Shown here in pieces: positions 5,572 through 32,070 of a DNA stretch of 32,264 nt. The notes below the pieces were generated by a model that saw only the letters and a program-made list of their open reading frames with translations, ran no database searches and was not told the origin of the DNA. Numbering within the stretch: the first letter of the stretch is position 1; each line of letters starts with the position of its first letter. The stretch comes from an uncultured Desulfatiglans sp. (GTDB lineage: Bacteria > Desulfobacterota > DSM-4660 > Desulfatiglandales > Desulfatiglandaceae), in NCBI GenBank assembly GCA_900498135.1, contig LR026961.1, forward strand, positions 4,129,420 through 4,161,683, in the 5' to 3' direction. The translations under genes and the position numbers were made by a program.

Positions 5572-5967
5572 CTAAACCCCGTATTTCCGATAGGTCCGGT
5601 GCCGGAAGGCGTGGGTCACCTTGACCAGACCGTCGGCGCCGCGCTCTTCTTCAACCTCTCTATCCGTGGTGGAATAGATCGGGACCAGTCCCTTCTCGAA
5701 GGCGAAGCCCGCCATCAGATAGCACGCACCGAAGTCCCCCTGGATGAGGACGAAATCCCCGGGTCGGGACTCTTCCTCCAGCCATTTTCGAACCGGTTCG
5801 AGAAACGCGCCGATCTCCGGCAGATCCGGAGGGATGTCCCGCCACACCTGCTTCAATCCGGCCGGGAGGTCCATGATCCTTCCAACCCCGAGGCTTTTCG
5901 ACGCGTCCTCGCGCTGCGCCTCTGTAATCTGGTGGTTGAACAGAAGAAAGAGGGTCCGCTCAGTCAT
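5572..5967 (-). CDS. csx20: CRISPR-associated protein Csx20
   Basis: This 131-residue protein matches the Csx20 family. It starts TERTLFLLFNHQITEAQRED, then has LGVGRIMDLPAGLKQVW, the conserved RPGDFVLIQGDFGACYLMAG, LVPIYSTTDREVEEE, and the end FRHRTYRKYGV. Csx20 accompanies type III CRISPR systems. Its Rossmann-like fold has been proposed to bind cyclic oligoadenylate, with a ring-nuclease (signal-degrading) role suggested; I cannot prove activity from sequence. The ATG at 5967 has AGGGAG about 9 bp upstream. It is separated from the cmr operon by 16 kb, and a truncated sister copy lies at 1854-2180. Confidence 0.85.
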   Translation of the reverse strand: MTERTLFLLFNHQITEAQREDASKSLGVGRIMDLPAGLKQVWRDIPPDLPEIGAFLEPVRKWLEEESRPGDFVLIQGDFGACYLMAGFAFEKGLVPIYSTTDREVEEERGADGLVKVTHAFRHRTYRKYGV

Positions 5968-6020
5968 TTTCTCATCTCCCTTAGTCAGTATCATTCCTGG
6001 AAACCACCCGGTATGACAGG

Positions 6021-6062
6021 AGGTGTATTCTGGCAACGCGTCATTTCGTAAGCAAGGTTTTT
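6021..6062. repeat. Short conserved element, copy 1
   Basis: GGTGTATTCTGGCAACGCG (6021-6039) followed 14 bp later by AAGGTTTTTT closely matches the element at 7295-7336. It lies 55-95 bp upstream of csx20 (- strand). Read on that strand it contains TTGCTT and, 17 bp on, CAGAAT, so it may be the csx20 promoter. Function unproven. Confidence 0.4.
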
Positions 6063-6179
6063 TAATTGGATGGCTGCAAACCGTCCGACCCAGGCAAACC
6101 TTTTTCGTCGCAACGACACAAACACGTGCTGGCCACCGCCGGCGGAAGCGGTGACCTGCCAACCCGTGCATTGAAACGG

Positions 6180-6686
6180 CTATATCAGCGGATCCAAACA
6201 GTCCCTCCACTCCACGGGCACATCGTCCAACTGGATGATGGCCAGGCCCCTGGATCCGTCACGGCTGGTTTTTTCGGCTGCAGGAGCCAGGTTCAGGTTC
6301 ACCGTCTCCGGAGAAAGCGTCCACATGGCGCCGGACAGAGGGTCGACAATCAGCCAACCGATCAAGCCCCCGAAGATGAAATTGCCGCCGACATACCACC
6401 CATTCGGCCCGCTGACGACCTGCGCCGTCTGGGTCTCGTGGCCTTCCTTTGAGATTGAAACGGTGTAATCCTTTCCACCGAAATAGGTCCCGTCCGCCTT
6501 CTGGAGCACCACGGTCGTCGGGGTCTGCCCTTTGAAGACCTGCTGACCTGTTTCGTCCGTAACACAGACCTCGGCACCCTCGGGTGAACTGTTGATACTC
6601 AAGAGTTGGGTCTTGTCGCCTACGATCGTAGCGCAGCCGACCAGCCCAAACACTCCCAACACCATTGTCCCGATGATCCAACGCAT
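6180..6686 (-). CDS. Small lipoprotein, function unknown
   Basis: The 168-residue product starts MRWIIGTMVLGVFGLVGCAT, a signal peptide with lipobox LVGC, so Cys18 would be lipidated and the protein anchored in the envelope. The mature N-terminal part (SINSSPEGAEVCVTDE, then GQTPTTVVLQKADG) is a PEGA-like beta domain. A glycine-rich hydrophobic stretch follows (GGNFIFGGLIGWLIVDPLSG), as in small surface lipoproteins that carry PEGA repeats. AAGGAGG lies about 8 bp before the ATG at 6686, which excludes the longer upstream frame. A palindrome (CCGGAGG-AA-CCTCCGG, 6728-6743) lies about 42 bp upstream. There is no visible link to the defence genes. Confidence 0.8.
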   Translation of the reverse strand: MRWIIGTMVLGVFGLVGCATIVGDKTQLLSINSSPEGAEVCVTDETGQQVFKGQTPTTVVLQKADGTYFGGKDYTVSISKEGHETQTAQVVSGPNGWYVGGNFIFGGLIGWLIVDPLSGAMWTLSPETVNLNLAPAAEKTSRDGSRGLAIIQLDDVPVEWRDCLDPLI

Positions 6687-6992: not shown

Positions 6993-7202
6993 ATCCATCC
7001 GGAAATGATTTCGCAGTAGGACTCAGTTTCCAATCCGGAAATGATTTCCACGTAGAACCCGGTTTTCGAGCCGGAGATGAGGATTTCTGGCCAATATCTA
7101 GGAAGTCAAGCGCTTGCACGGCGGCGACCTGCAGGTCGCCGCACAAGCAAACGTGCAGATTGACCCGGGATTGGCCAAAAAGACCATTTCCGGATGGAAT
7201 CC
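6993..7202 (-). repeat. MITE-like palindromic repeat, copy A (inverted relative to copy B)
   Basis: The reverse complement of this segment matches 17264-17434 closely over about 170 bp. The element has long terminal inverted repeats: TTTCC-A-TCCGGAAATG plus TTGGCCAAT at one end, and the mirror ATTGGCCA plus CATTTCCGGATTGGAAA at the other. The centre is a palindrome, GGCGACC-TGCA-GGTCGCC type, framed by CGTTTGC and GCAAACG-like arms. Copy A carries one extra tandem GGAAATCATTTCCGGAT unit. No open frame inside looks coding. It behaves like a non-autonomous palindromic transposon-like repeat. Confidence 0.75.
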
Positions 7203-7424: not shown

Positions 7425-7886
7425 ATGGCGAAGGCCGGGTCTAATCAAGGATTTGCCGCACGCCTCTGGGGTGAGGCCCCAAAACAGCCGCCGCTCGACT
7501 GGCGCCGCCTGGGGGCCTCCATCAGACGCCTGCCTTCGCCCTACTGGGAAGAGCGGATGTTCTTCCACGGGGCGGATGACCGGAAGCTCAGAGACGCGAC
7601 CGGAGGTTTTCCCGCCACCTTCCGCAGGGACAAAAAGACCCATCCGCTCTTCGTCCTGAAGCGGCTCGCCAATTTCGGCTTCCAGGTCTGCCCGTGCACT
7701 TCCGTCGCATCGAGTCCCTTCTATATCGAGAAAGGATGCCTCCTCGAACCGAGCGAATATGCCATGGAGCGCACCTCCTACATCATGGAGCGGTTTCGCT
7801 TCGGCCTGCCACGCTCGGGAAACGTGAACTTCACTTTGCGCTTCATGGGTGTCGTGCCTGAATCGTGCCTGAGGAGAAGCCTCTGA
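7425..7886 (+). CDS. Unknown small protein, first gene of the sigma/anti-sigma/Lon operon
   Basis: I do not recognise this 153-residue protein with confidence. It is basic and soluble, with no signal peptide or membrane helix. The middle and C-terminal part (HPLFVLKRLANFGFQVCPCT, then FYIEKGCLLE, TSYIMERFRFGLP, LRFMGVVPESCL) alternates short strands as in an SH3-like barrel. That weakly recalls MazF/PemK-type toxins, but no catalytic set can be assigned. The ATG at 7425 has GAGAGG just upstream. Its TGA overlaps the sigma-factor ATG (TGATG), so it belongs to the same message. By position it could be the operon's effector or a specificity subunit; Csx31 of type III-E loci would be a useful comparison. 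Confidence 0.7.
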   Translation: MAKAGSNQGFAARLWGEAPKQPPLDWRRLGASIRRLPSPYWEERMFFHGADDRKLRDATGGFPATFRRDKKTHPLFVLKRLANFGFQVCPCTSVASSPFYIEKGCLLEPSEYAMERTSYIMERFRFGLPRSGNVNFTLRFMGVVPESCLRRSL

Positions 7887-8950
7887 TGGACACGTCGACC
7901 TGGGAGGCATGGATCGACAGCCCGGGCTGCTTTGCGGTCCTGGAGCGCTGCGCGGCAACCGTTTCCCGCAAAATAAAGCCCCTGAACCTCTCCAGCCGCC
8001 AGTGGCCTTACGAGGACAACCGGGAGCTTGCGGCGGAGATCTGGGCCTTCCTGAAGGAGAAGAAGGAGTGCAGCCTGCCGCCCGATTTGCTCCGCCTGCT
8101 TCAGGACGCTGACTGGAGCCGTTTTGCCGGCTATCTCGGCACCTTGTTCCTCAACCACGCCCTCGACCGCTTGCGCACCCGGGAAATGAGCCCCTGGCAC
8201 GCCCTGTACCGGCGCGTGCGCCAGGTCCTCTCCAACGCGGACGGCATCCATTACAAGGCTGGACGGGAGGCGGCCTTCTATTCCTGGGAATCGGGAGACG
8301 AGAGGCCCGTCATCCCGCCCATCCACAACCTCTCCATGGACGAGACCGACTGGGCGATGGACCCCGCCGACGCGGTCAAACAGGCGAATCTCGCCGCCCT
8401 CTCGAAGTCATTCGAGCGCCTCCTCGTCGAGCGCACAGGCATCCACGGCTGGGTCCCCGTCCGCTCGTTCGTGAGCTTTCTCGGCGAGCTTTTTCCTGCA
8501 CTCCTCGAATCCTACCGGGAGGTGCCGCTGCCCGACGGCGATGCGCCCGGACCCGGCGGGCCCTACCTCGCACCGCCTTCCGACCCCGGCCCGACCGCCG
8601 AGGAGGCGGCCGCGCTCGCCGAACTCGCCCCTCTGGCCCAACGGTTCGTGAAGGCGATCGACGACCGGAAACGCGCCGTCTTGCATCTCAAATACGGCAT
8701 GGACCTCTCCCTGGAGGAGATGGCCCGCCGGCTGGGGTACAAAGGCCCAAGCGGCCCCCTATATCAATTGAACCTCGCGGAAGACGCCCTCCGCGGCTTC
8801 TGCAGCCTGTGGCCCGGGCTCTCACCGGAGGATCTGGACGAACATCTTTTCGGAGAATTCGTGGCGCGGGTGCTCGAACTTTGCAAATCCGCCTTCGAAG
8901 GCCGTTCAGATTCCATGAAAGAAGACGAAACGGAGCCCTCCGATGAATGA
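7886..8950 (+). CDS. Sigma-70-family (ECF-like) sigma factor of a CRISPR-linked operon
   Basis: This 354-residue protein looks like an alternative sigma factor that would redirect RNA polymerase. Residues about 78-118 (RFAGYLGTLFLNHALDRLRT, then WHALYRRVRQVL) resemble region 2, with the ALDRLR core. Residues about 258-305 (DDRKRAVLHLKYGMDLSLEE, MARRLGY, LAEDALRGFC) resemble the region 4 helix-turn-helix. The linker of about 140 residues is long for an ECF factor, so it is divergent. The start overlaps the upstream stop, and its own stop overlaps the next ATG (ATGAATGA). The gene order sigma, zinc anti-sigma, protease suggests it is held inactive by the next protein. Target promoters are unknown. 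Confidence 0.75.
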   Translation: MDTSTWEAWIDSPGCFAVLERCAATVSRKIKPLNLSSRQWPYEDNRELAAEIWAFLKEKKECSLPPDLLRLLQDADWSRFAGYLGTLFLNHALDRLRTREMSPWHALYRRVRQVLSNADGIHYKAGREAAFYSWESGDERPVIPPIHNLSMDETDWAMDPADAVKQANLAALSKSFERLLVERTGIHGWVPVRSFVSFLGELFPALLESYREVPLPDGDAPGPGGPYLAPPSDPGPTAEEAAALAELAPLAQRFVKAIDDRKRAVLHLKYGMDLSLEEMARRLGYKGPSGPLYQLNLAEDALRGFCSLWPGLSPEDLDEHLFGEFVARVLELCKSAFEGRSDSMKEDETEPSDE

Positions 8951-10070
8951 CCCTGCTTCCATCCGCATGAAGATTGCCTGGCAGAACCTCTTTTCGCTGC
9001 GCACCTGTCCGCCGGACCGCATTCTCTTTTCGGCGGACCGCGATCCCCTTCTGGAGCGCCACATTGAGGCCTGCCCCTTTTGCGCGGAGCGCCTTTCAGC
9101 CGCTGAGGAATGGAGCGCATGGGAGACCCTCGGCAGCCGGCTGGCGGAAGCTTCGCCTGCAGCCGAGCATGGAGCCCCCGCCCCCGGCGAGATCCGGGAG
9201 GTGAAGGCGACCCTCGGCGGCTGGGGCCCTTCGAACCGGTACTACAATCCGCCGATGGTGTTCATCCTGGACATCGAGGCCTCGCCCGAACCCTGTGCGC
9301 GCGTCGCGCAGGTCTGCGGCGATGCAGCGCTCATGGGTCCTGACGACGCAGCGCTCCCGGAGGACAAAGGTTTCGTGGAGTGTTGGAATACCTATGCGCT
9401 GGCCCTTGAGGACATCGGGCGACGCTGGGGGCAGGCGCCTCCCGAAATCCTTTCAGCCGTTCAGGATGCGGCCGTCCAGGCGCCCCAGCCGGTTCCCGAG
9501 CACTCCATCCTTTTTTTCTTCCGCCAGCTCGAACTCGAGCTGGCGGGGTACCTTGCGGCCAAGAGCGTCGAGCGGCTCCTGTCGAAGCAGAAATCCCCCG
9601 CCCACCCAGCGATGCCGCCCGCCGGCCTCGCCCTGCGCGCCTTCCTTCAGGAGGCCTACCCCGGTGCCGAACTGCCGGAGCATGCGGCAGACGACTACGA
9701 ACTGCTGGCCTTCAGCCGTTTTCCCGAACTGGAAACGCCTCTGGCGGCCGACGACAAGGGGGGCTGGGACAGGGCGAACTGCATCTGCCTCACCACGGAA
9801 GGCTTTGAGGTCCAGGCCGTACCCTTTCAGGTGGACCTTCTAAGCCAGTCTTCTACCGGCCTTCTCGTCGCCGGGAAAATCCGGCAGACAAGCTGTCTGC
9901 CTCAAACCATCCACGCGTGGTGGGAAAGGCCCGGCGCTGACCCGCTGCCGGCCGCCGAGCACGAACTCGACCGGGGCAAAAGCCTTTTTCGGATCGTTTT
10001 CAGAGGCCTCAGGGAAACCGAGGTCCAAAACGGCACCCTGGTCCTTCTTCTGGTGGGCGATGCGGTATAA
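8943..10070 (+). CDS. Zinc anti-sigma-like (HxxxCxxC) protein, probable partner of the sigma factor
   Basis: The N-terminal part of this 375-residue protein carries LERHIEACPFCAERL, that is His40-x3-Cys44-x2-Cys47, with Cys22 nearby. This is the ZAS motif of zinc-binding anti-sigma factors that wrap their sigma partner. Most ZAS proteins continue into one membrane helix. None is visible here; instead about 300 residues follow, including an immunoglobulin-like strand pattern near the C-terminus (SLFRIVFRGLRETEVQNGTL, VLLLVG). The gene overlaps both neighbours (8 bp and 11 bp). The simplest reading is a soluble anti-sigma whose cleavage by the Lon-like protease frees the sigma factor. Overall fold and cleavage are inferences. 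Confidence 0.65.
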   Translation: MNDPASIRMKIAWQNLFSLRTCPPDRILFSADRDPLLERHIEACPFCAERLSAAEEWSAWETLGSRLAEASPAAEHGAPAPGEIREVKATLGGWGPSNRYYNPPMVFILDIEASPEPCARVAQVCGDAALMGPDDAALPEDKGFVECWNTYALALEDIGRRWGQAPPEILSAVQDAAVQAPQPVPEHSILFFFRQLELELAGYLAAKSVERLLSKQKSPAHPAMPPAGLALRAFLQEAYPGAELPEHAADDYELLAFSRFPELETPLAADDKGGWDRANCICLTTEGFEVQAVPFQVDLLSQSSTGLLVAGKIRQTSCLPQTIHAWWERPGADPLPAAEHELDRGKSLFRIVFRGLRETEVQNGTLVLLLVGDAV

Positions 10071-12216
10071 CCCGAACAGCTGGGATCTGCAGGTACTCCA
10101 GGACTATTCCGCGGACTGGGACATCCGCGATCGGCGGGGCAATCTCCTGCATCCTCACCCGGGGATCTGGCCGGATGACGGCAGCCGCCTGTCCGCCCTT
10201 CTCGGAGACCTCCTCCAGAACATGGGCGCGGACGAACCCTTTCGAAGGCTTTTCTGCCTCAGCTGCCTCGCCGCAGCGATCCTCGCCCCGGAAAGACGCC
10301 GCCCGGAGCTGACCAGCGCCCTCTCGGCCCACACATCCCCTTCCGCCCTCGGACTGCCCTTCCTCGATTGGGACCATTTCCGTGCCTGGAGATGGGCGGG
10401 GATCCCGCTGGTGCTTTCCCGGCCGCAGGAAAACGCGGGCGAGGTGCGCTGGGCGATGGTGGGGTTCGGCGAAAAACCTGCCGGTGCCCGCATGCCCCTT
10501 TGGGCAAGCAGCCGCATGGATGCGACGGCCTGTCGGGCGGTTGAAACCGCGGCCGCCCTCGCCGCGCAAAAACAACCCGAAGGACATTTCTTCTTCTGGC
10601 CGGTGCTCGATCCCTGTGGAAGCAGCATCGTCCTCCACGGGTCGTCACTCGGACTGGCCGTCTACCTCGGCTTCCGATCGGCCCAGGAAGGCTTCTCCGT
10701 CCCGGCGCTCGCGGCTACTGGCGCTCTCAGCGCAGACGGCGATATCCTCCCGGTCGAAGGCATCCTTCAAAAATGCGAGGCCGCCCATCAACACCGGCTG
10801 GCCGGCATCCTTTGCCCCGCCCAAACCCACGCGGCCAGCCTTGTCAACATCGGCCGCTTCGAGTGTCTTCGCGTAGGCGACCTCGAAACCGCCGAGATCC
10901 TCTGGCGCTTTCACGCCCCGGGCACCGGGTCCGATGCGTCGGCGTTTTTGTCCCCACACCTGGAAACGACCTGGATCATCGACCACTTGGAAAGCGTCCC
11001 GGCCAAGCTTCTTTCCTGGCTGGAGGCCGATCGGCGCATCATTTCCCTCCGCCTGCCTGAAATCGTCGGCGACCCCTCCATCGCCAAGCGATTCGTCAGG
11101 GCGATCGAGGCGCTGCTGGACCCGCCGGACTGGTCCAAGCACCGGGCCCAGTTCCTTCTCGACCTGGTCACGCCAGAACTGGTCGACACCCTGGGGCGCC
11201 ATGCCCCCGGCCTGGCGTTCCGGCTGTGCAAGGCCCAGGTGGCCTGCGCCAACCACTGCGGGGCCGCGGGGAAGGCCGCCTTCTGGTTGAAAGCCGCCCA
11301 GTCTTTCCAGGAAGCAGCCGTCCACATGACCGACGGCGAGAGTCTGATCCTCCAGCACGCCTGCCATCGGATCGGGCAGGCCCACAACCGCTTCGAGTTC
11401 GACCCCCGGCTGGCCGAACACCTCCCGGAGGACACCCGCGCGCTGATCGAGCGCATGGAAGGCATCTTCGCCGAAAGGCGCCGATGCGACCCCCTGGCCG
11501 TCAATCATGACCTCGGAAGCTTCTACGGCACAATGGCCCAGAATGCCGCTTTCTGCGGACCGGAGCACCTGCCTGCCTTCGAAGGCTGGATCTCGAAGGC
11601 CCTCGACGCCTTCGGCGCCGGTCTGGTTCAGGAAGAAGCGCACACCCACTGGCTGAGAGATGTCTCCTATAAGGTATACGCCTACCTCGATGCGGGGCTC
11701 CTCAAAAGCGCCCGGACAGCCCTTCTCACCTATCTGAAAACCTCCACACCCGATACGTGCAACCCGCGCTGGAACCCATACCAGCACGCCGCCCTGATGC
11801 GCTGGCTGGCGGACACCGAGGAGCCAGCCCCCGCCTATCTCGCGTGGGCGTGCAAACGGATCGGGAAGACCGCCCCCCAGCATCCCTGGCAGCTCTGGCT
11901 CTACAACCTCGGCCGGTCGTCCGTAGACCCGTCCGTGAAGGAGCAGGCCTGGATGCAATCCCTGCAGCTCTGCAAAACCCAAGGAGAGGAAACGGTCAAC
12001 GTCATGGGGCTCCTCCCCCTCGCCGCCCTGCACGCCGATCGGCTGGGGGACCCCCGCATTCTCCAGCGCGAAACCGGGCGCATCCGCTCCCTGCTCGATG
12101 GCCCCCATCTCAGCCGCAGACACTTCGCCTGCCTGCTCGACACCCACAGATGGGAAAAACTCCTCGAGACCGTGATCGACCAACAGGCCGCCCTTTTTCC
12201 CTTTTCCTACCGCTGA
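10060..12216 (+). CDS. Lon-like (S16) serine protease fused to a C-terminal helical-repeat region
   Basis: Residues about 175-260 of this 718-residue protein match the Lon proteolytic domain. GSSLG holds nucleophile Ser196 (cf. GPSAG of Lon), then TGALSADGDILPVEGILQKC holds Lys238, aligned with Lys722 of E. coli Lon; the spacing is 42 versus 43. No AAA+ motor is present. An N-terminal region of about 170 residues is of unknown fold. The remaining 430 residues are helical, TPR-like repeats (for example AAFWLKAAQSFQEAAVHM, LLKSARTALLTYLK). I do not see a SAVED or CARF sensor, unlike CalpL. The start overlaps the anti-sigma-like gene by 11 bp. It probably cleaves that partner on an unknown, possibly CRISPR-derived, trigger. 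Confidence 0.75.
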   Translation: MRYNPNSWDLQVLQDYSADWDIRDRRGNLLHPHPGIWPDDGSRLSALLGDLLQNMGADEPFRRLFCLSCLAAAILAPERRRPELTSALSAHTSPSALGLPFLDWDHFRAWRWAGIPLVLSRPQENAGEVRWAMVGFGEKPAGARMPLWASSRMDATACRAVETAAALAAQKQPEGHFFFWPVLDPCGSSIVLHGSSLGLAVYLGFRSAQEGFSVPALAATGALSADGDILPVEGILQKCEAAHQHRLAGILCPAQTHAASLVNIGRFECLRVGDLETAEILWRFHAPGTGSDASAFLSPHLETTWIIDHLESVPAKLLSWLEADRRIISLRLPEIVGDPSIAKRFVRAIEALLDPPDWSKHRAQFLLDLVTPELVDTLGRHAPGLAFRLCKAQVACANHCGAAGKAAFWLKAAQSFQEAAVHMTDGESLILQHACHRIGQAHNRFEFDPRLAEHLPEDTRALIERMEGIFAERRRCDPLAVNHDLGSFYGTMAQNAAFCGPEHLPAFEGWISKALDAFGAGLVQEEAHTHWLRDVSYKVYAYLDAGLLKSARTALLTYLKTSTPDTCNPRWNPYQHAALMRWLADTEEPAPAYLAWACKRIGKTAPQHPWQLWLYNLGRSSVDPSVKEQAWMQSLQLCKTQGEETVNVMGLLPLAALHADRLGDPRILQRETGRIRSLLDGPHLSRRHFACLLDTHRWEKLLETVIDQQAALFPFSYR

Positions 12217-12302: not shown

Positions 12303-12581
12303 CTACAGCACCGCAAACTTCCGCTTCTCGGGCTGCTCGCCGACCCCCGAGAACTCGAAGTGCGACAGGCAGCCGCCGCACTGCCGGTAGTAGCGCACGC
12401 TGTCCTCGGTAAAATCGATCAGGCGCTCGATCCGGTCCTTGAGCTTCAGAAACTGCTTCTCGTTCAGGTCGGCGCATTCGAAGACGGATTTCTGCACCCG
12501 CGTGCCGGCCCCCTTGAGCGCCTTGGCCACCCGGTTCCGCACCTTGTCGTCCACAATGTCGAAGCAGATCAGATAGAACAT
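12303..12581 (-). CDS. cas2: CRISPR adaptation endonuclease Cas2
   Basis: This 92-residue protein starts MFYLICFDIVDDKVRNRVAK, the Cas2 ferredoxin-like core with the metal-site Asp in FDI, then GTRVQKSVFEC and the later SVRYYRQCGGC. Cas2 dimers bridge Cas1 to form the spacer integrase. It starts 3 bp after the cas1 stop and is last in the TPR-PrimPol-cas1-cas2 operon, which converges on the Lon operon across an 86-bp gap. That gap holds only a small GC hairpin (GCGGG-CTC-CCGC near 12218). Confidence 0.95.
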   Translation of the reverse strand: MFYLICFDIVDDKVRNRVAKALKGAGTRVQKSVFECADLNEKQFLKLKDRIERLIDFTEDSVRYYRQCGGCLSHFEFSGVGEQPEKRKFAVL

Positions 12582-12584
12582 GGC

Positions 12585-13640
12585 TCATCCCACCTGTGAC
12601 CATGGAAACGGCTGATACGCTTTCAATTCCCCCAGCAAATACCTCTCGAAGCGCCTCACCTGCTCCAGGATCAACCCCCGGTAGGTCAGCCTCTGATCCC
12701 CGTCAGGAGGCTTCACCCGCTGCTCCATCCACTTTTCGTAGGACTTGAGCAGTGCGCGCGAGGTGGCGGGCTTCATCTCGACGGGGCGTTTCCCCTTGAG
12801 ATCCTCTTCGTCGACGAAATCCGTGTCCTCGATCTTCCGGTAGACGAAGTCGTCCGGGCTGAGGACACTTCGGTTGATAAGCGCCAGCACGAACCGGTCG
12901 GCCAAAAAGACGCGCCACTCCTCGACGAGGTCGCAGGCAAGCGACGGCCGCCCGTAGTCCTCCAGGTGCAGCGCACCCAGGTACGGATCCAGACCGACGA
13001 TCTTGATGGCGGTCAGGACCTCGCTCGTCAACAGCGTGTAGACGAATGAAAGCAGCGCGTTGACCGGGTCGAGCGGCGGCCGGCGGTTGCGGCCCTTGAA
13101 GGTGAAGGCCGGGTTCCGCACCAGCCGTGGAAAGCCCTCGTAGTAGACGCGCGTCCCCTGCCCCTCGATCCCCCTGACAATGTCCAGATCGACGGCCGGG
13201 TCCAGCGCGCTCCTCTCCATGGCGCGGATCGTGGCCGCCCGCGCCAGCAGGGAATCGACCCCGAGCTGCTTCCCCCTCAGGGCCAGAAAACGCGCCTGGC
13301 CGCGGAGCTTGCCGCCAACGATGGAGCGCGCGGTCTCGAGGGCGAACCCGGGGTCGGAGAGCCGGAGATACTGCGCTTTGCGCCGGCCGACATGCTTGTG
13401 TTCGTCGACCGACAGCCGCCCCTCGAAGCCGCCGCGAGGGTTCAGAAGGACCGTCTCCACACGGCTGCGGATCAGCATGCGCAGCACCGCACCGCTGATG
13501 GAGGTGTAACCTACGAGGATCAATTGCTCCAGGTGTTCGAGGTCGATCTCCTCTTCGACCCTCCCATCCCGGAAAAGGGCGAGGTTTCCGCCTGACTTCC
13601 TGAGATAGCTTCCATTTTCGAGCACATACATCCGCTGCAC
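12585..13640 (-). CDS. cas1: CRISPR integrase Cas1
   Basis: Cas1 is the catalytic subunit of spacer integration. The 351 residues show the beta N-terminal domain (MYVLENGSYLRKSGGNLALF) and the helical catalytic domain. The metal ligands are visible: Glu159 in GIEGQGTRVYYEGF, His225 in LGALHLEDYG, and Asp237/Glu240 in RPSLACDLVEEWR. I use the GTG at 13640, with GAGGGGG about 5 bp upstream; an ATG three codons later (13631) is the alternative. It sits 10 bp after the primase-polymerase stop. There is no reverse-transcriptase fusion. Confidence 0.95.
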   Translation of the reverse strand: MQRMYVLENGSYLRKSGGNLALFRDGRVEEEIDLEHLEQLILVGYTSISGAVLRMLIRSRVETVLLNPRGGFEGRLSVDEHKHVGRRKAQYLRLSDPGFALETARSIVGGKLRGQARFLALRGKQLGVDSLLARAATIRAMERSALDPAVDLDIVRGIEGQGTRVYYEGFPRLVRNPAFTFKGRNRRPPLDPVNALLSFVYTLLTSEVLTAIKIVGLDPYLGALHLEDYGRPSLACDLVEEWRVFLADRFVLALINRSVLSPDDFVYRKIEDTDFVDEEDLKGKRPVEMKPATSRALLKSYEKWMEQRVKPPDGDQRLTYRGLILEQVRRFERYLLGELKAYQPFPWSQVG

Positions 13641-13650
13641 AGCATCCCCC

Positions 13651-15279
13651 TCAAGACGTCTCCCGCACCGCGGGCAGAAAACGCGTCACCAGGTCGAGGC
13701 TTCGCCGAAGGTGCTCCAGGGCATCCGCCAAATTTTCGACCCGTTCTGCCGCCACGGGCAGGTCTTCGGTCATCCACTCCCGACAGTGGAGCAGCGGATG
13801 CGCGTAAGGAAGCGGAGAATCGAACCGGCAGAAATCCAGGGCAACCCCCAGCAGGGTGTGGATCTTCCGGCAACCCAGGGGCGTGCCCCTCAGCCGCGAG
13901 AGCTTGTAGTCGACGAGGTGCGGGTTGTACTCCGGCACAGGCTGAAGCAGCGCGTGAAGAAGCGTCTTGCCCCGCTTGAGAAAGCCGACGGTGGCAAAGA
14001 GGATCTTCTCTTCGCGCACCCCCATCGCCTTTCCGTTGCGGCAGGCCGTGATCAACTGGCCGAGCGGAGGGCACCGCTCCGAGAGCCGGTGAAGCTCAGG
14101 GAAGCGCGCGATCCACTCCCCCTGCCGGGGGTGGATGAGAACGCCGCCGCCGGACCCCGTCTTCCCGAGCGGCGGGTCCTTTTTCTCCAGCGTCGAGTAG
14201 GCGGCGCCCTCCAGAACCTCCAGGGCCTGCCACACATCCCCGGATCTTTTCTGCAGAAAATAGGAGGGCTTTCCGGTGACCCGGTGCAGCCCGAGGGGAA
14301 GCTTCACGAGGTTCCCGAGCCCCTTCCCTCCCAGCTGGTCCTGCTTCGGAAAGACCTCCAGATCGAAAAACGTCAAATCGGGCCTGAGCGCCCCGGCAAG
14401 CGCTGCGAGCGCCTCCTTGAGCGGCCGCGCCGGGACAGGCTCCTCGAAAAAGAACCAGAAGTGATACCCCTTCCCCCCGCTGAACTCCGGCAGCGCGAAA
14501 AGGTTCATCGGCTTTCCGAGTTCCTGAACGCGCTCCACCAGGTACGCGCATTCGCGCTGAATGCCCGAGCGCTCCTTGGCAAGCGCCGCCCCCGTGCGGT
14601 AGGCCTGCTTCAAATCGGCGTCGATCACGCCCGTCGCCACCCGGCTGTCCCGCCGCAGCAGGTAGATGCCGTAGGTCTTGAGGCCGCGCAGATGATCCCG
14701 GACATCCGCCGGCTCGATCGCCCGCCTCACGGGAACGTATCCGCTCGTGCCGGCGTTCCGGTCCGCCCACTGCCTCGCGAAGCAGTCTTCCCGCCCCTGG
14801 AAGAGCGCCATATAGCGGGCGATCAGGCGCTCCTCCCGCTTCATGGCCGCAAAGGGCTCGTCCAGAAACTGAAAATCCCCCCCGCCGTCGCCCGTATGCA
14901 CAGGCTGCGCGTCATGTTGTCCGAAACCGGGGATGGCACCCTGAGCGCGCGCCCTGAGAGCGGCGGCCTCCGCCCCCTTGCCGAGCAGGACCAGCAATTC
15001 GATGTGCTCGCGCCACCCCGGCTCGAAGGCCGGGTGGCGCCGATTCAAATCCCCGAGCGTCCGGCAGGCCACGTCCATCTCGCCCGCCATCTGGGCCAGC
15101 CGGCTCCACTCGAGGCACTGCTCCGGGTTGAGCCGCTGGAGGACATCCATCTTGCGAAGGATCTCCCGGCACTTCTCGATTTCCCGGTTTTCGATGATGA
15201 AGGATCGCAGCCGGGAGAAGAGCAGCTCGAAATCAGGTGCGGCCGGACGCTTCGGGGCCGCTTCAGCGGGCGTTTTCAT
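13651..15279 (-). CDS. CRISPR-associated primase-polymerase (CAPP, archaeo-eukaryotic primase superfamily)
   Basis: The 542-residue protein carries an AEP/PrimPol core at about residues 175-350. Motif I is GVIDADL (Asp220, Asp222), motif II is SGGKGYHFW (267-275, with His273), and motif III is FFDLEVFP (Asp306); LGNLVKLPLGLHRVTGK follows. About 110 N-terminal residues are TPR-like. Such enzymes sit beside cas1-cas2 in type III loci, synthesise DNA and are implicated in adaptation. The ATG at 15279 has AAAGGAG 8-9 bp upstream and is preferred to a longer frame that overlaps the TPR gene. It lies 10 bp before cas1. Confidence 0.88.
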   Translation of the reverse strand: MKTPAEAAPKRPAAPDFELLFSRLRSFIIENREIEKCREILRKMDVLQRLNPEQCLEWSRLAQMAGEMDVACRTLGDLNRRHPAFEPGWREHIELLVLLGKGAEAAALRARAQGAIPGFGQHDAQPVHTGDGGGDFQFLDEPFAAMKREERLIARYMALFQGREDCFARQWADRNAGTSGYVPVRRAIEPADVRDHLRGLKTYGIYLLRRDSRVATGVIDADLKQAYRTGAALAKERSGIQRECAYLVERVQELGKPMNLFALPEFSGGKGYHFWFFFEEPVPARPLKEALAALAGALRPDLTFFDLEVFPKQDQLGGKGLGNLVKLPLGLHRVTGKPSYFLQKRSGDVWQALEVLEGAAYSTLEKKDPPLGKTGSGGGVLIHPRQGEWIARFPELHRLSERCPPLGQLITACRNGKAMGVREEKILFATVGFLKRGKTLLHALLQPVPEYNPHLVDYKLSRLRGTPLGCRKIHTLLGVALDFCRFDSPLPYAHPLLHCREWMTEDLPVAAERVENLADALEHLRRSLDLVTRFLPAVRETS

Positions 15280-15314
15280 GTTCGGATCTCCTTTCGCTTG
15301 GCCTTCCTTCCCCC

Positions 15315-16700
15315 TCACGGGCCGGCCTTCTTCGCTATCGCCTGCCGGAGTTTCCCGAGGAGCGGGTAAGCCGGCCTGAACGCGGCCAGGTCCGCAGCCT
15401 TTTGCCTGGCCGCCTCGAGCTCGCCCTTCCTCAGGTGCGCCGCGGCCTGCCAGAAGAGCCCGTCCGGGTCCGGGGTCGTGAAGGTCTCGATGTGGAACTG
15501 GACCGCTTCACCGGCCTGTCGGAGCACCTGGTCGTCGTTGCCCTCCCGGTACGCCATCCTGGCCAGGCGGACCAGGGTCCGATGCCGCGAACGCCGGTCC
15601 CGCTCGAGGGCCCCGGTCAAAACGCTCCGCGCCTTGTCGTGCTCGCCGAGCCGATTGAGGATGTCAGACTCCGTCCACCGGACGTAGGGCCTGCGCACCC
15701 GGGGCGGGATTCGTTCAACCGCAGCCAGGGCCTCCCGCGGTTTGTCCTGCGCCAGGAGCACCCGCCCGAGGAGTTCGAAGACGTAATCGCCTTCGGCCGG
15801 ATTCACCACCCGGGACGTGAACTCCAGGGCGTCCTGCGCCTCGCGGTACCGGCCGAGGTGGAAGAGGACCTTTCCCAGGGCGAAGTGCTTGTGCTCGACC
15901 CGCACATGGTTCTTCTCCCCGTCTTCCTCGATGCAGCTCTGGATGCTCGCGAGCGCCCCTTTCATCCGCCCCGTCTTCACCTGGCACGAGCCCAGGTTGT
16001 ATAGGGCCTTGATGTAGTTGCGCCGCTCCTGATGCCGGACCTTCCGCTCATCGTCCGTCAGCGCCAGCCAATTCTTCACCGCCTGCACCAGAAGCGGCAA
16101 CGCCCGGTCGGGCTTCTGCAGGATGTTCTTGTAGAGCATCCCTTCGCGGTAAAACGCCGTCACCCCTTCGGGCCGGAGTTCCCTCGCCTTTTTGAAGTGA
16201 TCGAGCGCCCTGTCCGTCCGCCCGGCCTTGACCTGAGGCGGCAGGATGATCTCCCGGTTCTTGGCGGCCAGGAGGCTTTCGTACAGCGTGTAGGCCAACC
16301 CCGAGTGGAACCGGAAATCCTCCGGGCTGCGCCTGAGGCACACCTCGTAGGCGACGATCGCGTCGTCGTAGCGTTTGAGGCGGCTGAGCGCGAAGGCCAC
16401 CTCAGAGCGCAGCGGGAGGTCCAGGCCGAAACGGACCATCTCCGGCTCGCGCTCCTCGACGGGATGATACAGATCCAGGATCTCCTGCCAACGGTTGTCG
16501 GCCCGCAGGAGTTCGATCTCCCCGATGTGCGCCTTCAACCTGGCCGCAAGGGTCTCCTGGATCCCGCTCTGCGCGGCCAGTTCCTCGAAGAACGCCTCTC
16601 CGGCCGGGGTCTTCCCGTTCTTGACCGCCTCGGTTGTCTGTGGGGGGTTGGGAGCAGCCTCTCCCTGCGGATACGATAGGATCTTCGCCGTGGTGCCCAT
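15315..16700 (-). CDS. TPR-repeat protein heading the PrimPol-cas1-cas2 operon
   Basis: The 461-residue protein has no signal peptide and is mostly tetratricopeptide repeats. Clear units include AFALSRLKRYDDAIVAYEVC, then DRALDHFKKARELRPEG, NLGSCQVKTGRMKGALASI, ALGKVLFHLGRYREAQDALE and RAKLE-type C-terminal helices. TPRs normally mediate protein contacts. AAGGAGG lies 9 bp before the ATG at 16700, so the longer frame from 16718 is not used. It ends 35 bp before PrimPol, whose N-terminus is also TPR-like. It might dock PrimPol, Cas1-Cas2, or the helical-repeat Lon protein encoded opposite. No enzymatic domain is seen. Confidence 0.85.
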   Translation of the reverse strand: MGTTAKILSYPQGEAAPNPPQTTEAVKNGKTPAGEAFFEELAAQSGIQETLAARLKAHIGEIELLRADNRWQEILDLYHPVEEREPEMVRFGLDLPLRSEVAFALSRLKRYDDAIVAYEVCLRRSPEDFRFHSGLAYTLYESLLAAKNREIILPPQVKAGRTDRALDHFKKARELRPEGVTAFYREGMLYKNILQKPDRALPLLVQAVKNWLALTDDERKVRHQERRNYIKALYNLGSCQVKTGRMKGALASIQSCIEEDGEKNHVRVEHKHFALGKVLFHLGRYREAQDALEFTSRVVNPAEGDYVFELLGRVLLAQDKPREALAAVERIPPRVRRPYVRWTESDILNRLGEHDKARSVLTGALERDRRSRHRTLVRLARMAYREGNDDQVLRQAGEAVQFHIETFTTPDPDGLFWQAAAHLRKGELEAARQKAADLAAFRPAYPLLGKLRQAIAKKAGP

Positions 16701-16751
16701 GTCTGCCGCCTCCTTCAAGTTGAGGTTTTACGCCCAAGGGCAGGACTCCCG

Positions 16752-16884
16752 GGCAGCCCATCCCTTAGAGAGGGGCTACCCGGGGCCTGCACTAATGGAA
16801 CACGGCATCGAAGAGAGGATTTTCAAAAAACTTTTGCAAAGACCGTCGGTTTTCAGTGGCAGGGATACTGCGCGGATTATTCCT
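16752..16884. repeat. Dispersed 115-130 bp repeat, copy 1
   Basis: From GGGCAGCCCATCCCTT through CCTGCACTAATGGA, CACGGCATC and GAGGATTTTCAAAA to GGATTATTC, this segment matches 30415-30527 in the same orientation. The first 30 bp fold into a hairpin (GGGCAGCCC with GGGTAGCCC complement). It lies about 50 bp upstream of the TPR-gene start (- strand), so it may supply leader or promoter sequence for that operon. Confidence 0.7.
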
Positions 16885-17263: not shown

Positions 17264-17434
17264 TTTCCATCCGGAAATGGTCTTTTTGGCCAATCTCGGC
17301 GTCAATCTACACGTTTGCTTGTGCGGCGACCCACAGGTCGCCTCCGCGCAAACGCTTGATTTCATTGATATTGGCCAAAAATCCTCATTTCCGGATTGGA
17401 AACCGGGTTGTGCCGGGAAATCATTTCCGGATGG
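17264..17434 (+). repeat. MITE-like palindromic repeat, copy B
   Basis: This is the inverted counterpart of 6993-7202. The terminal inverted repeats are TTTCCATCCGGAAATGG with TTGGCCAAT, against ATTGGCCA with CATTTCCGGATTGGAAA. The central stem is GGCGACC-CACA-GGTCGCC. It ends with one GGGAAATCATTTCCGGATGG unit. It begins right at the stop of the RHH gene and separates it from darT. Confidence 0.75.
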
Positions 17435-17567: not shown

Positions 17568-18254
17568 ATGGTCTTCACATCAAAACCACGTGGGATGACA
17601 GTTGATAAAAATATGCCGATACCCGGAGATATTAAGATCTATCATATTGTTCATATTGACCGTCTCCCTTCGATTATCTTGGATGGTTGTCTCTGGTGCG
17701 ACGCGGAAATAATTCGCCGCTCTGCACCTGGAACCCGCATCGGGATGATGAATATCAAAAAACGGCGGCTTGAAGAATTAAAACTGACCAGCCGCCCTCA
17801 GCTTTACGTGGGTCAGTGCGTCCCATTCTATTTCTGCCCACGCTCGGTTATGCTTTACATTATTCATCAGGCTGATCACCCCGAATTATCCTATCGTGAT
17901 GGGCAGGCCCCCATAGTACATTTGGAGGCGGATCTCCTCCAAACTGTGGCTTGGGCCAAGGAGGGGGGACGCTCATGGGCGTTCACCCTTTCGAATGCCG
18001 GAGCCCACTACTTCGAGGATCGTTGCGACCTCTCCCACTTGGACGAAATTGATTGGGCAGCGGTGCAGGCTAGGGATTGGCGCCAGTGTAAAGAAGGTAA
18101 GCAAGCAGAATTCTTAATTGAACGGCAATTTCCATGGGAATTGGTCAATCGCATCGGCGTAATATCACGGCCCGTACGTGATCAAACCCTCAGAATCCTT
18201 CAAACGGCAGATTACAAACCTCGTGTAGATGTGAAGCCTGAATGGTATTATTAA
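17568..18254 (+). CDS. darT: DNA ADP-ribosyltransferase toxin DarT
   Basis: DarT attaches ADP-ribose from NAD+ to single-stranded DNA bases, halting replication; it acts in phage defence. The 228-residue frame matches the family: PIPGDIKIYHIVHIDRLPSI with the NAD-binding His, then YVGQCVPFYFCPRSVMLYII, GGRSWAFTLSNAGAHYFEDR, and the catalytic-Glu segment KQAEFLIERQFPWELV. The end, KPEWYY, is typical. In-frame ATGs at 17568, 17595 and 17613 all have weak ribosome sites. Homology begins at 17613, so the true protein may be 213 residues. It is followed 16 bp later by darG. GC content is lower than in the cas genes, suggesting separate acquisition. Confidence 0.92.
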   Translation: MVFTSKPRGMTVDKNMPIPGDIKIYHIVHIDRLPSIILDGCLWCDAEIIRRSAPGTRIGMMNIKKRRLEELKLTSRPQLYVGQCVPFYFCPRSVMLYIIHQADHPELSYRDGQAPIVHLEADLLQTVAWAKEGGRSWAFTLSNAGAHYFEDRCDLSHLDEIDWAAVQARDWRQCKEGKQAEFLIERQFPWELVNRIGVISRPVRDQTLRILQTADYKPRVDVKPEWYY

Positions 18255-18270
18255 GAGAGTGGAGAGCTAT

Positions 18271-19335
18271 ATGATCGTATACAAGACAGGCGACATACTC
18301 AGTGAGGACGTCGAGGCACTGGTCAATACGGTTAACTGCGTGGGCATCATGGGCCGTGGCATAGCCCTTCAGTTTAAAAACGCTTACCCGGATAATTTCA
18401 GGGCATACGCTGCGGCTTGCAAAAGGAAGGAAGTGCAGCCTGGAAAGATGTTTGTCTTTGAAACCGGGCGACTGGTGCACCCGCGTTATCTCATCAATTT
18501 CCCAACCAAGCGTCACTGGAGAGGCAAGAGCCGGATGGAGGATATCGAGAGCGGCCTTGTTGCTTTAGTGGAGGTGATCCGATCAAGGGACATTCGGTCC
18601 ATCGCCATCCCGCCTCTAGGAAGCGGATTAGGCGGTTTGTGCTGGTCAGAGGTCCGTCCGCGTATCGAAGCGGCTTTAGGAGAGTTCAAAGAGCTTAAGG
18701 CGGTCATTTTCGAACCACGTGACGCATCGATTAACACGGAGATCAACCATTCAAAGAGTGTACCTAAAATGACGTCAGGCAGGGCTGCCTTGGTAGGATT
18801 GATGTCCCGCTATCTAAACGGGTTGCTGGACCCTTTTATAACCTTGCTCGAAGTACACAAGCTCATATATTTTATGCAAGAGGCTGGAGAACCGTTGAAG
18901 CTTCGCTTCACGAAAAGCCATTATGGGCCGTATGCCGAAAACCTCAGGCACGTATTGAACGCCGTCGAAGGACATTTGGTTTCCGGCTACGCCGATGGAG
19001 GAGACGAACCTAACAAGCATTTAGAGCTGATACCCGGCGCAATCGAAGACGCACTAGCATTCCTTAGAGATGCAGCAGAAACCAAGGCACGATTTGATAA
19101 AGTAACAGAACTGGTCGAAGGATTCGAATCACCATTCGGTCTCGAGTTATTATCTTCGGTTCACTGGGTTATTAGCAGGGAGAAGGTTCAAACCGAGGAT
19201 GACGTTGTGACACGAACATATGAATGGAATGATCGGAAAAGGCAATTCACAAGACGTCAGATTGCGCTTGCCGTGGACGTGTTATCCAGGAAAAACTGGA
19301 TTAAGAACTTCGCTGATCAGACGATTTGTCAGTGA
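18271..19335 (+). CDS. darG: DNA ADP-ribosyl glycohydrolase antitoxin DarG
   Basis: DarG removes DarT's ADP-ribose marks with its macrodomain and also binds the toxin through its C-terminal part. Residues 1-150 are a macrodomain: YKTGDILSEDVEALVNTVNC, GIMGRGIALQFK, and PPLGSGLGGLCW. Residues about 165-354 (for example LEVHKLIYFMQEAGEPLKLR, KSHYGPYAENLRHVL) match the DarG toxin-binding domain. The ATG at 18271 has GGAGAG 4 bp upstream; a GTG at 18259 is less likely. At 354 residues it is full length, so the pair looks functional. Confidence 0.93.
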   Translation: MIVYKTGDILSEDVEALVNTVNCVGIMGRGIALQFKNAYPDNFRAYAAACKRKEVQPGKMFVFETGRLVHPRYLINFPTKRHWRGKSRMEDIESGLVALVEVIRSRDIRSIAIPPLGSGLGGLCWSEVRPRIEAALGEFKELKAVIFEPRDASINTEINHSKSVPKMTSGRAALVGLMSRYLNGLLDPFITLLEVHKLIYFMQEAGEPLKLRFTKSHYGPYAENLRHVLNAVEGHLVSGYADGGDEPNKHLELIPGAIEDALAFLRDAAETKARFDKVTELVEGFESPFGLELLSSVHWVISREKVQTEDDVVTRTYEWNDRKRQFTRRQIALAVDVLSRKNWIKNFADQTICQ

Positions 19336-19392: not shown

Positions 19393-19620
19393 GACCTCCT
19401 TCCTTCCCTTCCGAAGCTACCGGGGACTGCCAGTTTTTCTTTTTTCCGCCCTGCAGCAGGAAAACCACCACTTCCTACGGCTCGAAAATCGAGGCGAGGG
19501 CGGTCTGCACGACGCGCGTTTCCTTGCTCCGCCGGCCACACACTTACACGCCGGCCTGGCAAACGCTCGTTCCAAGAAAGCCGATCATCCTCTTACCCGA
19601 CCTATCACCCTCCTCACGAG
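19393..19620 (-). pseudogene. Decayed 5' fragment of a csx1/csx2-type gene
   Basis: About 225 bp match the 5' end of the intact gene at 30718-32013, including its ribosome site (GAGGAGGGTG). The start ATG is replaced by ATAG, and the codons for Tyr in GVYV and Ser in QPSEVVV are TAA and TAG. The remaining translation is recognisable (FLGTS, SKETR, EVVVFL, NWQSP). Homology ends at about 19393, so the rest of the gene has been deleted. It begins directly after the nudix stop codon. Confidence 0.85.
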
Positions 19621-20247
19621 CTATAAACTACAAACGCCACCCACCAGCCTGAGGGCCAGCCGCGACCACAACTCGAACCGATCCAGGTCCATTTCCCGGG
19701 TCTTCAGCCAGCTGAAGGAGTCGAGTTCCCTGTCCGCGCGCACCTGGTCCGCTGCGCTCAGCCGCAGCCGGTACACCAGCCCGAGGTGGACGCGGCCGAC
19801 CGCCGTACGTTCCTCATTGATCAACCCGACGAAAACCGGCGGATGCGCGGGAGCCGAGAGGCCCAGCTCTTCACCCAGTTCGCGCCGAAGACCCCGCTCC
19901 ACGACCTCGGGCAAAGCCGCATCCACCCCGGAGCTGTCCCCCCGGTTCACATGGCCGCCTATGCCGACGGACCACAGATCGTGCAGCCTCGCCTCGGACC
20001 CTTTCCTCCGATAGCACGCGGTCTCGACCCCATCGACGCTCTGAACCACCACGTAGGGGATGAGCTGCTTGAAGGAAGGATCGCCTTCGGCGCGCTCCCG
20101 CGGCAGCCACGACAGGGCGGCATCCGGAAGCCGGGCGGCGAACGCCTCCATCGACAGTTCACAGGCGGTCATCTCCATCAGCCACTCCTCCGGGAGACCA
20201 TCCCGGGGAACGCACAGAACCTGCTCCGAACGGCTTTTCTGATTCAT
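19621..20247 (-). CDS. Nudix hydrolase paired with Cad1
   Basis: This 208-residue protein has a Nudix fold. The Nudix box is centred on E114 and R122-ELGEELGL (REUXEEXGU consensus), preceded by LWSVGIGGHVNRGD. The N-terminal 60 residues are an extension not needed for the fold. Its ATG overlaps the cad1 stop (TGATG), so the two are translationally coupled and should be made together. Cad1 produces ITP from ATP; nucleotide-cleaving Nudix partners have been described with CARF-deaminases, so ITP is the most likely substrate. That assignment rests on context; the sequence alone gives only the class. Confidence 0.88.
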   Translation of the reverse strand: MNQKSRSEQVLCVPRDGLPEEWLMEMTACELSMEAFAARLPDAALSWLPRERAEGDPSFKQLIPYVVVQSVDGVETACYRRKGSEARLHDLWSVGIGGHVNRGDSSGVDAALPEVVERGLRRELGEELGLSAPAHPPVFVGLINEERTAVGRVHLGLVYRLRLSAADQVRADRELDSFSWLKTREMDLDRFELWSRLALRLVGGVCSL

Positions 20248-22461: not shown

Positions 22462-23724
22462 CTACTCAACAGACACGATCGCGTAATTTTTGCCCCCAGC
22501 GGGCATCACCTCGATTTGCTGGACCTTGACGATTTTATTTTTCTTGAGTTTGGCGCGGTATTGCTCGGGGATCAGATCCATACCCTTCATGAAAGCCTTT
22601 TTCCCAGCAACTTCGGCGCTTACCTCCTGGCTGCCCGGCAAGTAACGGAGGTGAACGTTTTCCCAAATTTCATGAACAGGTTCGACAGGAGCATTTGCGG
22701 ATTTCGCTTCAGGTTCTGCCTCTTCGCCATGGCTGCCCGGATCATCCCGTTTGGCGATGTCAAGGCCAAACCTTCCGTGGCCTACAGCGGTTTTCGCCCC
22801 CAGACCGTGGCGGTCCAACGCGGCTTCAAACGCCTCGGAAAAATCCGACACGACGGTCTTCTCCTTCGCCAGCTCCGGTCCCATGAGGATCCGAAACACG
22901 AATCGGGTGCGCTCGCTGCCCTGACGATCCAGAAACGGATCAACCGCCCAGTACTTTTGAGGATTAGGGGACTGGTCCTCCGTCGGCCTCCCATTCGCTT
23001 TATTGAGATAGTCAGGATAATGACAGTTCATGATCTCCGCCTTCAGGAGGGGCAGTTTCGCAGGGAAAGCGTCCATGAAGACGACCCCTCCCCTGTTTGG
23101 TTCGAGATTGTCTTCAGCCGACGTCTCTAAATTTCCAAAGACCCTGCGAGCTTCCCCCGCCTCGTTCGGAAGCCGGCCTTTTCCCACCTGTTGCCAAAAT
23201 CTTCGGGCGTCTTGCACCTCGGGAATCCGGTTGAGCGCCCTCACCAGCCAAGCCAGACGCACCACCCCCTTGATTCCGCTTGCCGGGATATACTGCACAC
23301 CAAGGGTCCAGTCGAATGAAAAACCCTTTTCAGATGGATGACCGTTGCCAAGGCCAACGACCAGCGGCGTTTCAAGAATCGCTTCGAAACGCAGAAGTCG
23401 ATATCCCAAGCTTTCAAGAGACCGGGCTGCCGCTTCCTGACGTTCGTGGCGTTTCTCGAGAAGCCTGCCGGCGGTCTTTCTGTCCCATTTACCGCCCGTG
23501 GGGGAAGCCTCCCCATTGAACATGGCGATTGAGGGGAGTAAATTGTCCCCGGGATCCTCTGCATTCCCCTCGACAGGACATTTTCCGCCGCTTTCCTGAA
23601 CATAAAACCACTTGTTAAAATAAAGGCCGTAATTGAAAAAGCCTTTCGGTTGTTTTCCAATCACGCGGTCGACGGCAGGATTGACCGGCCGCACAACCGG
23701 CTTCGGAGCAGCCTTCGCATTCAT
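22462..23724 (-). CDS. cmr6: Type III-B RAMP protein Cmr6
   Basis: Cmr6 caps the Cmr backbone near the 3' end of the crRNA. The 420-residue protein shows RAMP features: YRLLRFEAILETPLVVGLGN, then VQYIPASGIKGVVRLAWLVR, the GGVVFMDAFPAKLPLLKAEI segment and the glycine-rich KTAVGHGRFG. About 60 C-terminal residues after position 360 are a lysine-rich extension. The ATG at 23724 is preceded by AAGGAGAG and overlaps the cmr5 stop (ATGA), which rules out the longer upstream frame. Confidence 0.92.
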   Translation of the reverse strand: MNAKAAPKPVVRPVNPAVDRVIGKQPKGFFNYGLYFNKWFYVQESGGKCPVEGNAEDPGDNLLPSIAMFNGEASPTGGKWDRKTAGRLLEKRHERQEAAARSLESLGYRLLRFEAILETPLVVGLGNGHPSEKGFSFDWTLGVQYIPASGIKGVVRLAWLVRALNRIPEVQDARRFWQQVGKGRLPNEAGEARRVFGNLETSAEDNLEPNRGGVVFMDAFPAKLPLLKAEIMNCHYPDYLNKANGRPTEDQSPNPQKYWAVDPFLDRQGSERTRFVFRILMGPELAKEKTVVSDFSEAFEAALDRHGLGAKTAVGHGRFGLDIAKRDDPGSHGEEAEPEAKSANAPVEPVHEIWENVHLRYLPGSQEVSAEVAGKKAFMKGMDLIPEQYRAKLKKNKIVKVQQIEVMPAGGKNYAIVSVE

Positions 23725-24122: not shown

Positions 24123-24131
24123 CGCTCCCTC

Positions 24132-25070: not shown

Positions 25071-25086
25071 GGCACTCTCTCCTCTC

Positions 25087-30298: not shown

Positions 30299-30414
30299 GC
30301 CTTACTGCCTGAAAAAATCCCACTGACTGAGAAACGCATGATTCCAGTGCGCATACCCATACGATTCAATAGGCAGAGTTCAGTTCTCTCGCATTTGCAG
30401 ACTCTTCTCATTCG

Positions 30415-32013: not shown

Positions 32014-32070
32014 AGCACCCTCCTCATGCTTTAAAAAAGCGAAAGCTCTGGCGTAGAATCAGCTAAGTCA

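Follow-up and report, generated by a model that had tools for sequence, protein, structure and literature searches.

A Calp-like protease–sigma factor cassette with a predicted TPR-like superhelix in place of SAVED, and a candidate promoter element of type III CRISPR operons, in Desulfobacterota

A stretch of 32,264 nucleotides from an uncultured Desulfatiglans sp. (assembly GCA_900498135.1, contig LR026961.1, positions 4,129,420 to 4,161,683), hereafter called the window, contains a type III-B CRISPR (clustered regularly interspaced short palindromic repeats) locus and, at 7425-12216 on the plus strand, four overlapping genes in the order small protein, sigma factor, zinc anti-sigma (ZAS)-like protein and Lon-like protease. 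The gene of the small protein (7425-7886) was called as an open reading frame (ORF) of 153 aa, and its TGA stop codon shares bases with the ATG at 7886 (TGATG). This ATG is a better start of the sigma factor gene (7886-8950, about 354-361 aa) than the alternative GTG at 7865 because it is preceded by GAGGAG and overlaps with the stop of the small gene. The sigma gene and the zas gene (8943-10070, 375 aa, soluble product) overlap by 8 nt, the zas gene and the lon gene (10060-12216, 718 aa) by 11 nt, and these overlaps suggest translational coupling of a four-gene operon. The four overlapping genes had been described in an initial annotation made from the letters alone, and ORFs, profiles and the conserved gene order confirmed them; the order is kept in more than 20 loci, which rules out a chance arrangement.

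The fourth gene codes for a Lon-type (S16) protease. It matched Pfam Lon_C (E 6.6e-4) and, as a profile, the Lon domains in the PDB (E 3.4e-16). The proteolytic domain comprises aa 111-285 (10390-10914) with Ser196 (codon 10645-10647) and Lys238 (codon 10771-10773), both of which are invariant across 31 aligned homologues. An AlphaFold2 model (pLDDT 91.5, pTM 0.86) has helices from 10 to 108, the Lon alpha/beta domain from 111 to 285 and an all-helical part from 290 to 718; the modelled Lon domain fits 6on2 with Z 20.7 and a root-mean-square deviation (rmsd) of 2.2 over 164 residues. The intact Ser-Lys dyad claimed in the initial annotation was borne out, and the domain has a Lon fold in the model. 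The C-terminal part (aa 290-718, 10927-12213) forms in the model a superhelix like that of tetratricopeptide repeat (TPR) proteins, ends in a conserved FPF(S/T)YR and is a candidate sensor. It resembles APPBP2, Rap and MalT domain III with Z 18-20, values that helical repeats easily reach in structure comparison. No match to SAVED or CARF was found in the protease sequence, and the PADLOC Lon-SAVED models hit the Lon part only (residues 193-248); none was found among the structure matches listed either, but this list consists mostly of Lon and TPR folds and by itself proves little. Because Lon is the only alpha/beta domain of the model, a sensor of the SAVED or CARF type was ruled out for the protease, again in agreement with the helical repeats noticed before. 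According to the model, the SAVED sensor is replaced by the TPR-like superhelix. In a sister genome (G184), broken pieces of a second protease gene lie just downstream of the intact one (L032:9887-10142).

The sigma factor matched TIGR02937 with E 1.1e-5, below the curated cut-off of that model. Region 4 is recognisable at aa 265-291, and 8 of the 13 family members matched Sigma70_r4 (E 3e-5 at best); this region is separated by a long insert from region 2, which is barely recognisable (Sigma70_r2 in 1 of 13, E 0.057). By sequence, the protein is a divergent, long member of the sigma-70 family that is clear in region 4 only. The protein encoded next has the motif C22-x17-H40-x3-C44-x2-C47 (codons at 9006-9083, from the alignment of homologues). 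H40, C44 and C47 had been pointed out before; among 22 homologues, H40, C44 and additionally C22 are invariant and C47 is conserved in at least 90%. The match to Pfam zf-HC2 is weak within the family of the window protein but above cut-off in its positional counterpart in locus L044 (E 8.1e-6). The N-terminal zinc motif is followed by a central domain, an (L/M)AA motif at 268-269 and a C-terminal beta domain, and no PDB chain was matched by sequence with this family. These features make it a zinc anti-sigma-like protein, which is predicted to inhibit the sigma factor.

The small protein, called unknown in the initial annotation, is likely a MazF/PemK-like fold. Its model (pLDDT 85.9) was matched by Foldseek to 5ckd (E 0.066, probability 0.97), and all 50 structure matches listed are MazF-like toxins, the best with Z 7.5 over 96 residues and rmsd 3.4. 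Since the Z values are moderate and the model is a prediction, the fold is likely rather than proven. No Pfam or NCBIfam family was matched. Among the four proteins, the small one shows the highest conservation (49% mean column identity); it is always encoded first in the operon and has an invariant HP and a CPC(T/S)(S/T) motif. The catalytic residues of MazF include Arg and Thr; in a comparison by eye, without residue-level structural alignment, His73 lies at the position of the Arg and the PC(T/S) motif is retained. True CalpL operons have a small ORF in the corresponding position as well.

Sampling 297 genomes of the phylum revealed long relatives of the protease in about 16. A scan for a conserved protease motif, with one genome per species, yielded 25 loci, whose titled records belong to Desulfobacterota/Deltaproteobacteria or to an unclassified bacterium; the module is present in the named strain Desulfacinum infernum DSM 9756. 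A viral contig collection contained no protease copies. As far as searched, the module is restricted to Desulfobacterota. With the small protein as query (E < 1e-40) it was found in 14 of 395 genomes. Ten of these have type III genes, nine with Cas10 and in addition G362, whose module locus was seen by direct reading to carry cmr-type genes; in the remaining four the module is located on contigs of less than 9 kb (two genomes) or in curli loci (two genomes). Nearly all loci with long flanks have type III neighbours (csm or cmr, csx1, csx20, cad1, cas1), and Cas10 models, some of the Cmr2 and some of the Csm1 type, match in most module genomes. The module is often 10-32 kb away from the Cmr/Csm complex genes. 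A divergent version (L040:559-10338) comprises a 483-aa sigma-like protein, a 674-aa inhibitor that has only the C-terminal beta domain in common with the ZAS family, and a Lon-like protease, followed by an RT-Cas1 fusion.

The linkage to CRISPR postulated at the outset held in the cas10 survey but not in the two genomes with a curli cassette. In these (G172 and G282, same family), MazF-like, sigma, ZAS and Lon genes (L046:2617-13366 and L150:4986-17077) lie within a locus with CsgE/F/G, curlin repeats and a LuxR-type regulator, and Cas10 models detected no Cas10 in either genome. The two curli proteases are 44% identical over their full length, whereas the window protease aligns to that of G282 over residues 35-400 only. 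Because the C-terminus is swapped in the curli version, it is likely, judged from the sequences, that it is the input domain of the protease. Encoded beside the protease in L039 (6981-9122) and L044 (14711-16891) is a second protein, in which the helical C-terminal module known from the Lon-like protease follows a DUF3800-like (RNase H-type) domain; only L039 gave a match to DUF3800, and a weak one.

A candidate promoter of the sigma factor came from an 86-bp repeat pair in the window (16750-16835 and 30413-30498), whose copies are located upstream of the TPR-PrimPol-cas1-cas2 operon and of the cmr operon. Comparison with the locus of a sister genome (L033), in which only the repeat core is kept upstream of the TPR operon, gave the consensus TTGAARA-N13-GCCGTR. 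This has the form of promoters of extracytoplasmic function (ECF) sigma factors; the sigma-W promoter, TGAAAC-N16-CGTA, has a comparable architecture. Exact copies in the window are located on the minus strand at 16801-16826, upstream of TPR-PrimPol-cas1-cas2, and at 30464-30489, upstream of cmr1-cas10-cmr3-6. A further copy, TTGCAAATCCGCCTTCGAAGGCCGTT (8881-8906, plus strand), with 11 of 12 informative positions, falls within the 3' end of the sigma gene, 62 bp upstream of zas. As a 27-mer with up to three mismatches, the element occurs in the complete 4.8 Mb genome only at the two sites of these exact minus-strand copies (reversed control 0). In 30 module loci, all independent of the window and L033 from which the element had been defined, 3 exact sites and 21 within one mismatch were counted, whereas dinucleotide shuffles gave 0.25 and 2.8, respectively. 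When the spacer length was varied, the same loci yielded no exact site, and sites with at most one mismatch numbered 1-11 (mean about 5), which is background or close to it. A comparison set of 20 module-free type III loci (361 kb) contained no exact site and 5 within one mismatch (Poisson p 4e-6). The element is, therefore, enriched in module loci, and type III loci that lack the module contain it at background frequency. An unbiased count of dyads in front of the module yielded just A/T-rich pairs, barely over shuffles.

Many of the genes preceded by the element belong to the CRISPR system. Copies before the adaptation operon were found in the window and L033 and, weaker, in L043 and L045, the copy before cmr in the window, and copies before csx1/csx20 or cad1 in L034, L036, L037, L038, L045, L051, L053 and L070. 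The cas6-csm operons of the same genome (L111:2977, one mismatch) and of Desulfacinum (L113:6650, exact) are preceded by it, too. Before zas, copies with at least 10 of 12 positions are present in 13 of 22 loci, compared to 1.7% of random windows. TTGAARA-N13-GCCGTR is thus a sequence-supported, predicted recognition site of the sigma factor. An EcsC-family gene is located near the module in L039 (14952-15731); EcsC as a general member of the regulon was ruled out, as it is absent from the genome of the window.

Two of the predicted targets of the sigma factor are encoded on the minus strand of the window, the adaptation operon (cas2, cas1, PrimPol A1 and TPR protein, 12303-16718) and the type III-B effector operon (cmr6-cmr5-cmr4-cmr3-cas10-cmr1, 22462-30240), whose Cas10 retains the GGDD motif, as read directly from the sequence. 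On the same strand, profile matches identified a CARF-adenosine deaminase effector of the Cad1 type (20247-22385), which makes cyclic oligoadenylate (cOA) signalling part of the locus, and a Csx1-type CARF-HEPN ribonuclease (30718-32013). A CRISPR array (36-nt repeats, 73-nt spacing, strand not assigned) begins at 32071 and is interrupted by the window end at 32264. Two Csx20-like ORFs at 1854-2243 and 5572-6210 (both minus strand; stretch D1, 89% identical) are possible cyclic tetra-adenylate (cA4) ring nucleases, and their relatives adjoin csx1 in many module loci. Furthermore, a DarT/DarG toxin-antitoxin pair is present at 17568-19335, and inverted copies at 7033-7199 and 17265-17432 flank both the module and the adaptation genes and may indicate a mobile or defence-island segment. 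An imperfect direct repeat of 232 bp (81%) is found at 19396-19627 and 31806-32037, one copy spanning the start of csx1 by the CRISPR array. A second type III system of the same genome (csm and cas6, L110:14945 to L111:2622) is located about 15 to 21 kb past the right end of the window.

Taken together, we consider it probable that the module is a Calp-like proteolytic signalling cassette without SAVED that induces CRISPR genes. At rest, the ZAS protein would keep the sigma factor inactive and dock on the Lon-TPR protease. Recognition of phage RNA by the type III complex would then activate the protease via its TPR-like superhelix, with cyclic oligoadenylate, the MazF-fold partner or direct contact as candidate triggers. 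The activated protease may cut the ZAS protein, plausibly at the (L/M)AA motif before the C-terminal domain, and the freed sigma factor would act via the element to induce the type III effector operons, the csx genes and, for adaptation, the PrimPol-cas1-cas2 operon. The system could be reset by the sigma factor itself, which would drive the synthesis of more ZAS protein and protease from the promoter within its own operon. As to the trigger, the effectors of the cA4 type and csx20 nearby speak for a cyclic nucleotide, whereas the TPR fold speaks for a ligand that is a protein or peptide.

Several results weigh against this induction of CRISPR genes by a Calp-like cassette. The element was first spotted in the window's own repeat, and no copy was found in front of the window's module; in the sites before zas, the -35 half coincides with conserved codons for the C-terminus of the sigma factor, so that these copies are partly confounded; exact matches in whole genomes are partly due to chance (34 compared to 17 in the reversed control, 15 genomes); and hhalign found no homology of the ZAS protein to CalpT, nor of the sigma factor and the small protein to their counterparts in the Calp system. 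Another regulator could bind the element before the cas operons while the sigma factor controls something else, which would fit a region 2 too divergent for a prediction of specificity; this is improbable in view of the ECF-like architecture of the element, its enrichment in module loci over type III loci without the module and the copies before zas. It is very unlikely that the cassette serves as a sigma cascade for general stress or for the envelope, which lies near CRISPR by coincidence and does not respond to it: the two genomes without detected Cas10 would speak for it, but type III genes are present in ten of the 14 genomes and two of the others are on contigs below 9 kb, the element follows the CRISPR operons and the curli form differs in its C-terminus.

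The signal could also be sensed in other ways. The TPR superhelix may directly contact the type III effector complex once this is activated, in the way that Csx29 (TPR-CHAT) binds to Cas7-11, an idea supported by this analogy, the TPR-like superhelix itself and the missing CARF or SAVED. We regard it as rather doubtful, but less so than the other alternatives, since the module goes with both Cmr and Csm, often at a distance, and the cOA effectors csx1, cad1 and csx20 are its commonest neighbours. Activation specifically by contact with Cmr, one proposal of the initial annotation, is disfavoured by the Csm systems that carry the module too, and contact with a TPR protein, the other proposal, lost weight because the neighbouring TPR gene is part of the PrimPol-cas1 operon and is missing from many loci. 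Alternatively, the MazF-fold protein could be the sensor, which binds cyclic oligoadenylate or RNA fragments and signals to the protease, or a ribonuclease effector that is released or produced by the cascade. Its predicted fold, its high conservation and its constant first position argue for such a role, and its slot is filled also in CalpL operons, whose protease has its own SAVED sensor. The latter can be turned around, because CalpL loci retain the small protein although SAVED senses cA4; moreover, the curli loci keep it while the C-terminus of the protease changes, and this suggests that the variable input is the C-terminus. The catalytic Arg of MazF is apparently replaced by His73. A sensor or effector role of the small protein seems unlikely to us.

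If the cassette does induce CRISPR genes, it would be a third protease-sigma architecture in type III immunity and suggests a new class of sensor. The native targets of CRISPR-associated sigma factors are largely open; in the CASP study, a site at cas1 was predicted and the full consequence in D. ishimotonii was unknown (PMC10028731). Testing the element against type III loci without the module led to a concrete predicted regulon, the cas10, csm/cmr, csx and primpol-cas1-cas2 operons with a built-in reset. Recognition of a target would thereby feed back positively on the expression of CRISPR genes and on the acquisition of spacers. Broader still, and in our view with about even chances of being right, is a portable cassette of MazF-fold protein, sigma factor, ZAS protein and Lon protease with an exchangeable sensor, wired to type III CRISPR by a TPR-like sensor distinct from both CARF and SAVED and to curli control by another one; the sigma factor of the CRISPR form would then act as a dedicated master regulator and, once a target is recognised, amplify the genes for interference and adaptation. 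The curli version would be an example of rewiring between immunity and development.

Cascades in which a protease cuts an anti-sigma factor are experimentally established for CASP (PMC10028731) and CalpL (PMC11417357); no description of the present variant was found in the literature searched, whose scope did not extend to most subscription papers or to the original one on CalpL. Like SAVED-CHAT and the other proteases that cOA activates in type III systems, the module is a protease arm of immunity, but it is devoid of SAVED and its expected output is transcription instead of a protease cascade. Pairs of ECF sigma factors and ZAS (zf-HC2) proteins have the same adjacent, overlapping sigma and HxxxCxxC genes and a probable ECF-type promoter motif, whereas the ZAS protein of the module is large and soluble, carries two additional domains and has a protease as its dedicated partner. 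The CASP/Craspase system is similar in having a CRISPR-activated protease with a TPR-type helical domain, an anti-sigma substrate and a sigma factor predicted to act on cas1, and the EcsC-family gene in L039 has its counterpart in the CASP locus, where it is a predicted target of the sigma factor of the III-E system (PMC10028731). However, the protease of the module is of the Lon and not of the CHAT family, and its effector operons are Cmr/Csm with Cas10 (in the window, Cas10/Cmr) rather than Cas7-11, so that it is not a TPR-CHAT bound to Cas7-11. No homology of the ZAS protein to Csx30 or CalpT emerged: its family gave no PDB sequence match, and hhalign no significant match to CalpT.

The closest relationship is to the Calp system, whose analogy, like that to III-E CASP, had been proposed at the beginning and is supported by our data. 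Both are associated with type III systems and combine a Lon-family protease with a Ser-Lys dyad, a sigma factor and an inhibitor in one operon; genuine CalpL loci of the same phylum have the order small ORF, CalpS, CalpT, CalpL and then cas10, so that the four-gene order near cas10, including the small ORF, is common to both. CalpT has reportedly been described as a MazF homologue. The differences are the TPR-like superhelix and N-terminal helical part instead of SAVED, the zinc motif of the inhibitor and the larger, divergent sigma factor. An alanine-rich motif stands just before the C-terminal domain in both inhibitors, (L/M)AA in the ZAS protein and LAASSK-like in CalpT. Detectable homology is confined to the Lon domains (hhalign 93%, E 3e-7) and, since the slot of the small protein is filled in true CalpL operons as well, the module is a Calp-like variant and not an unrelated invention.

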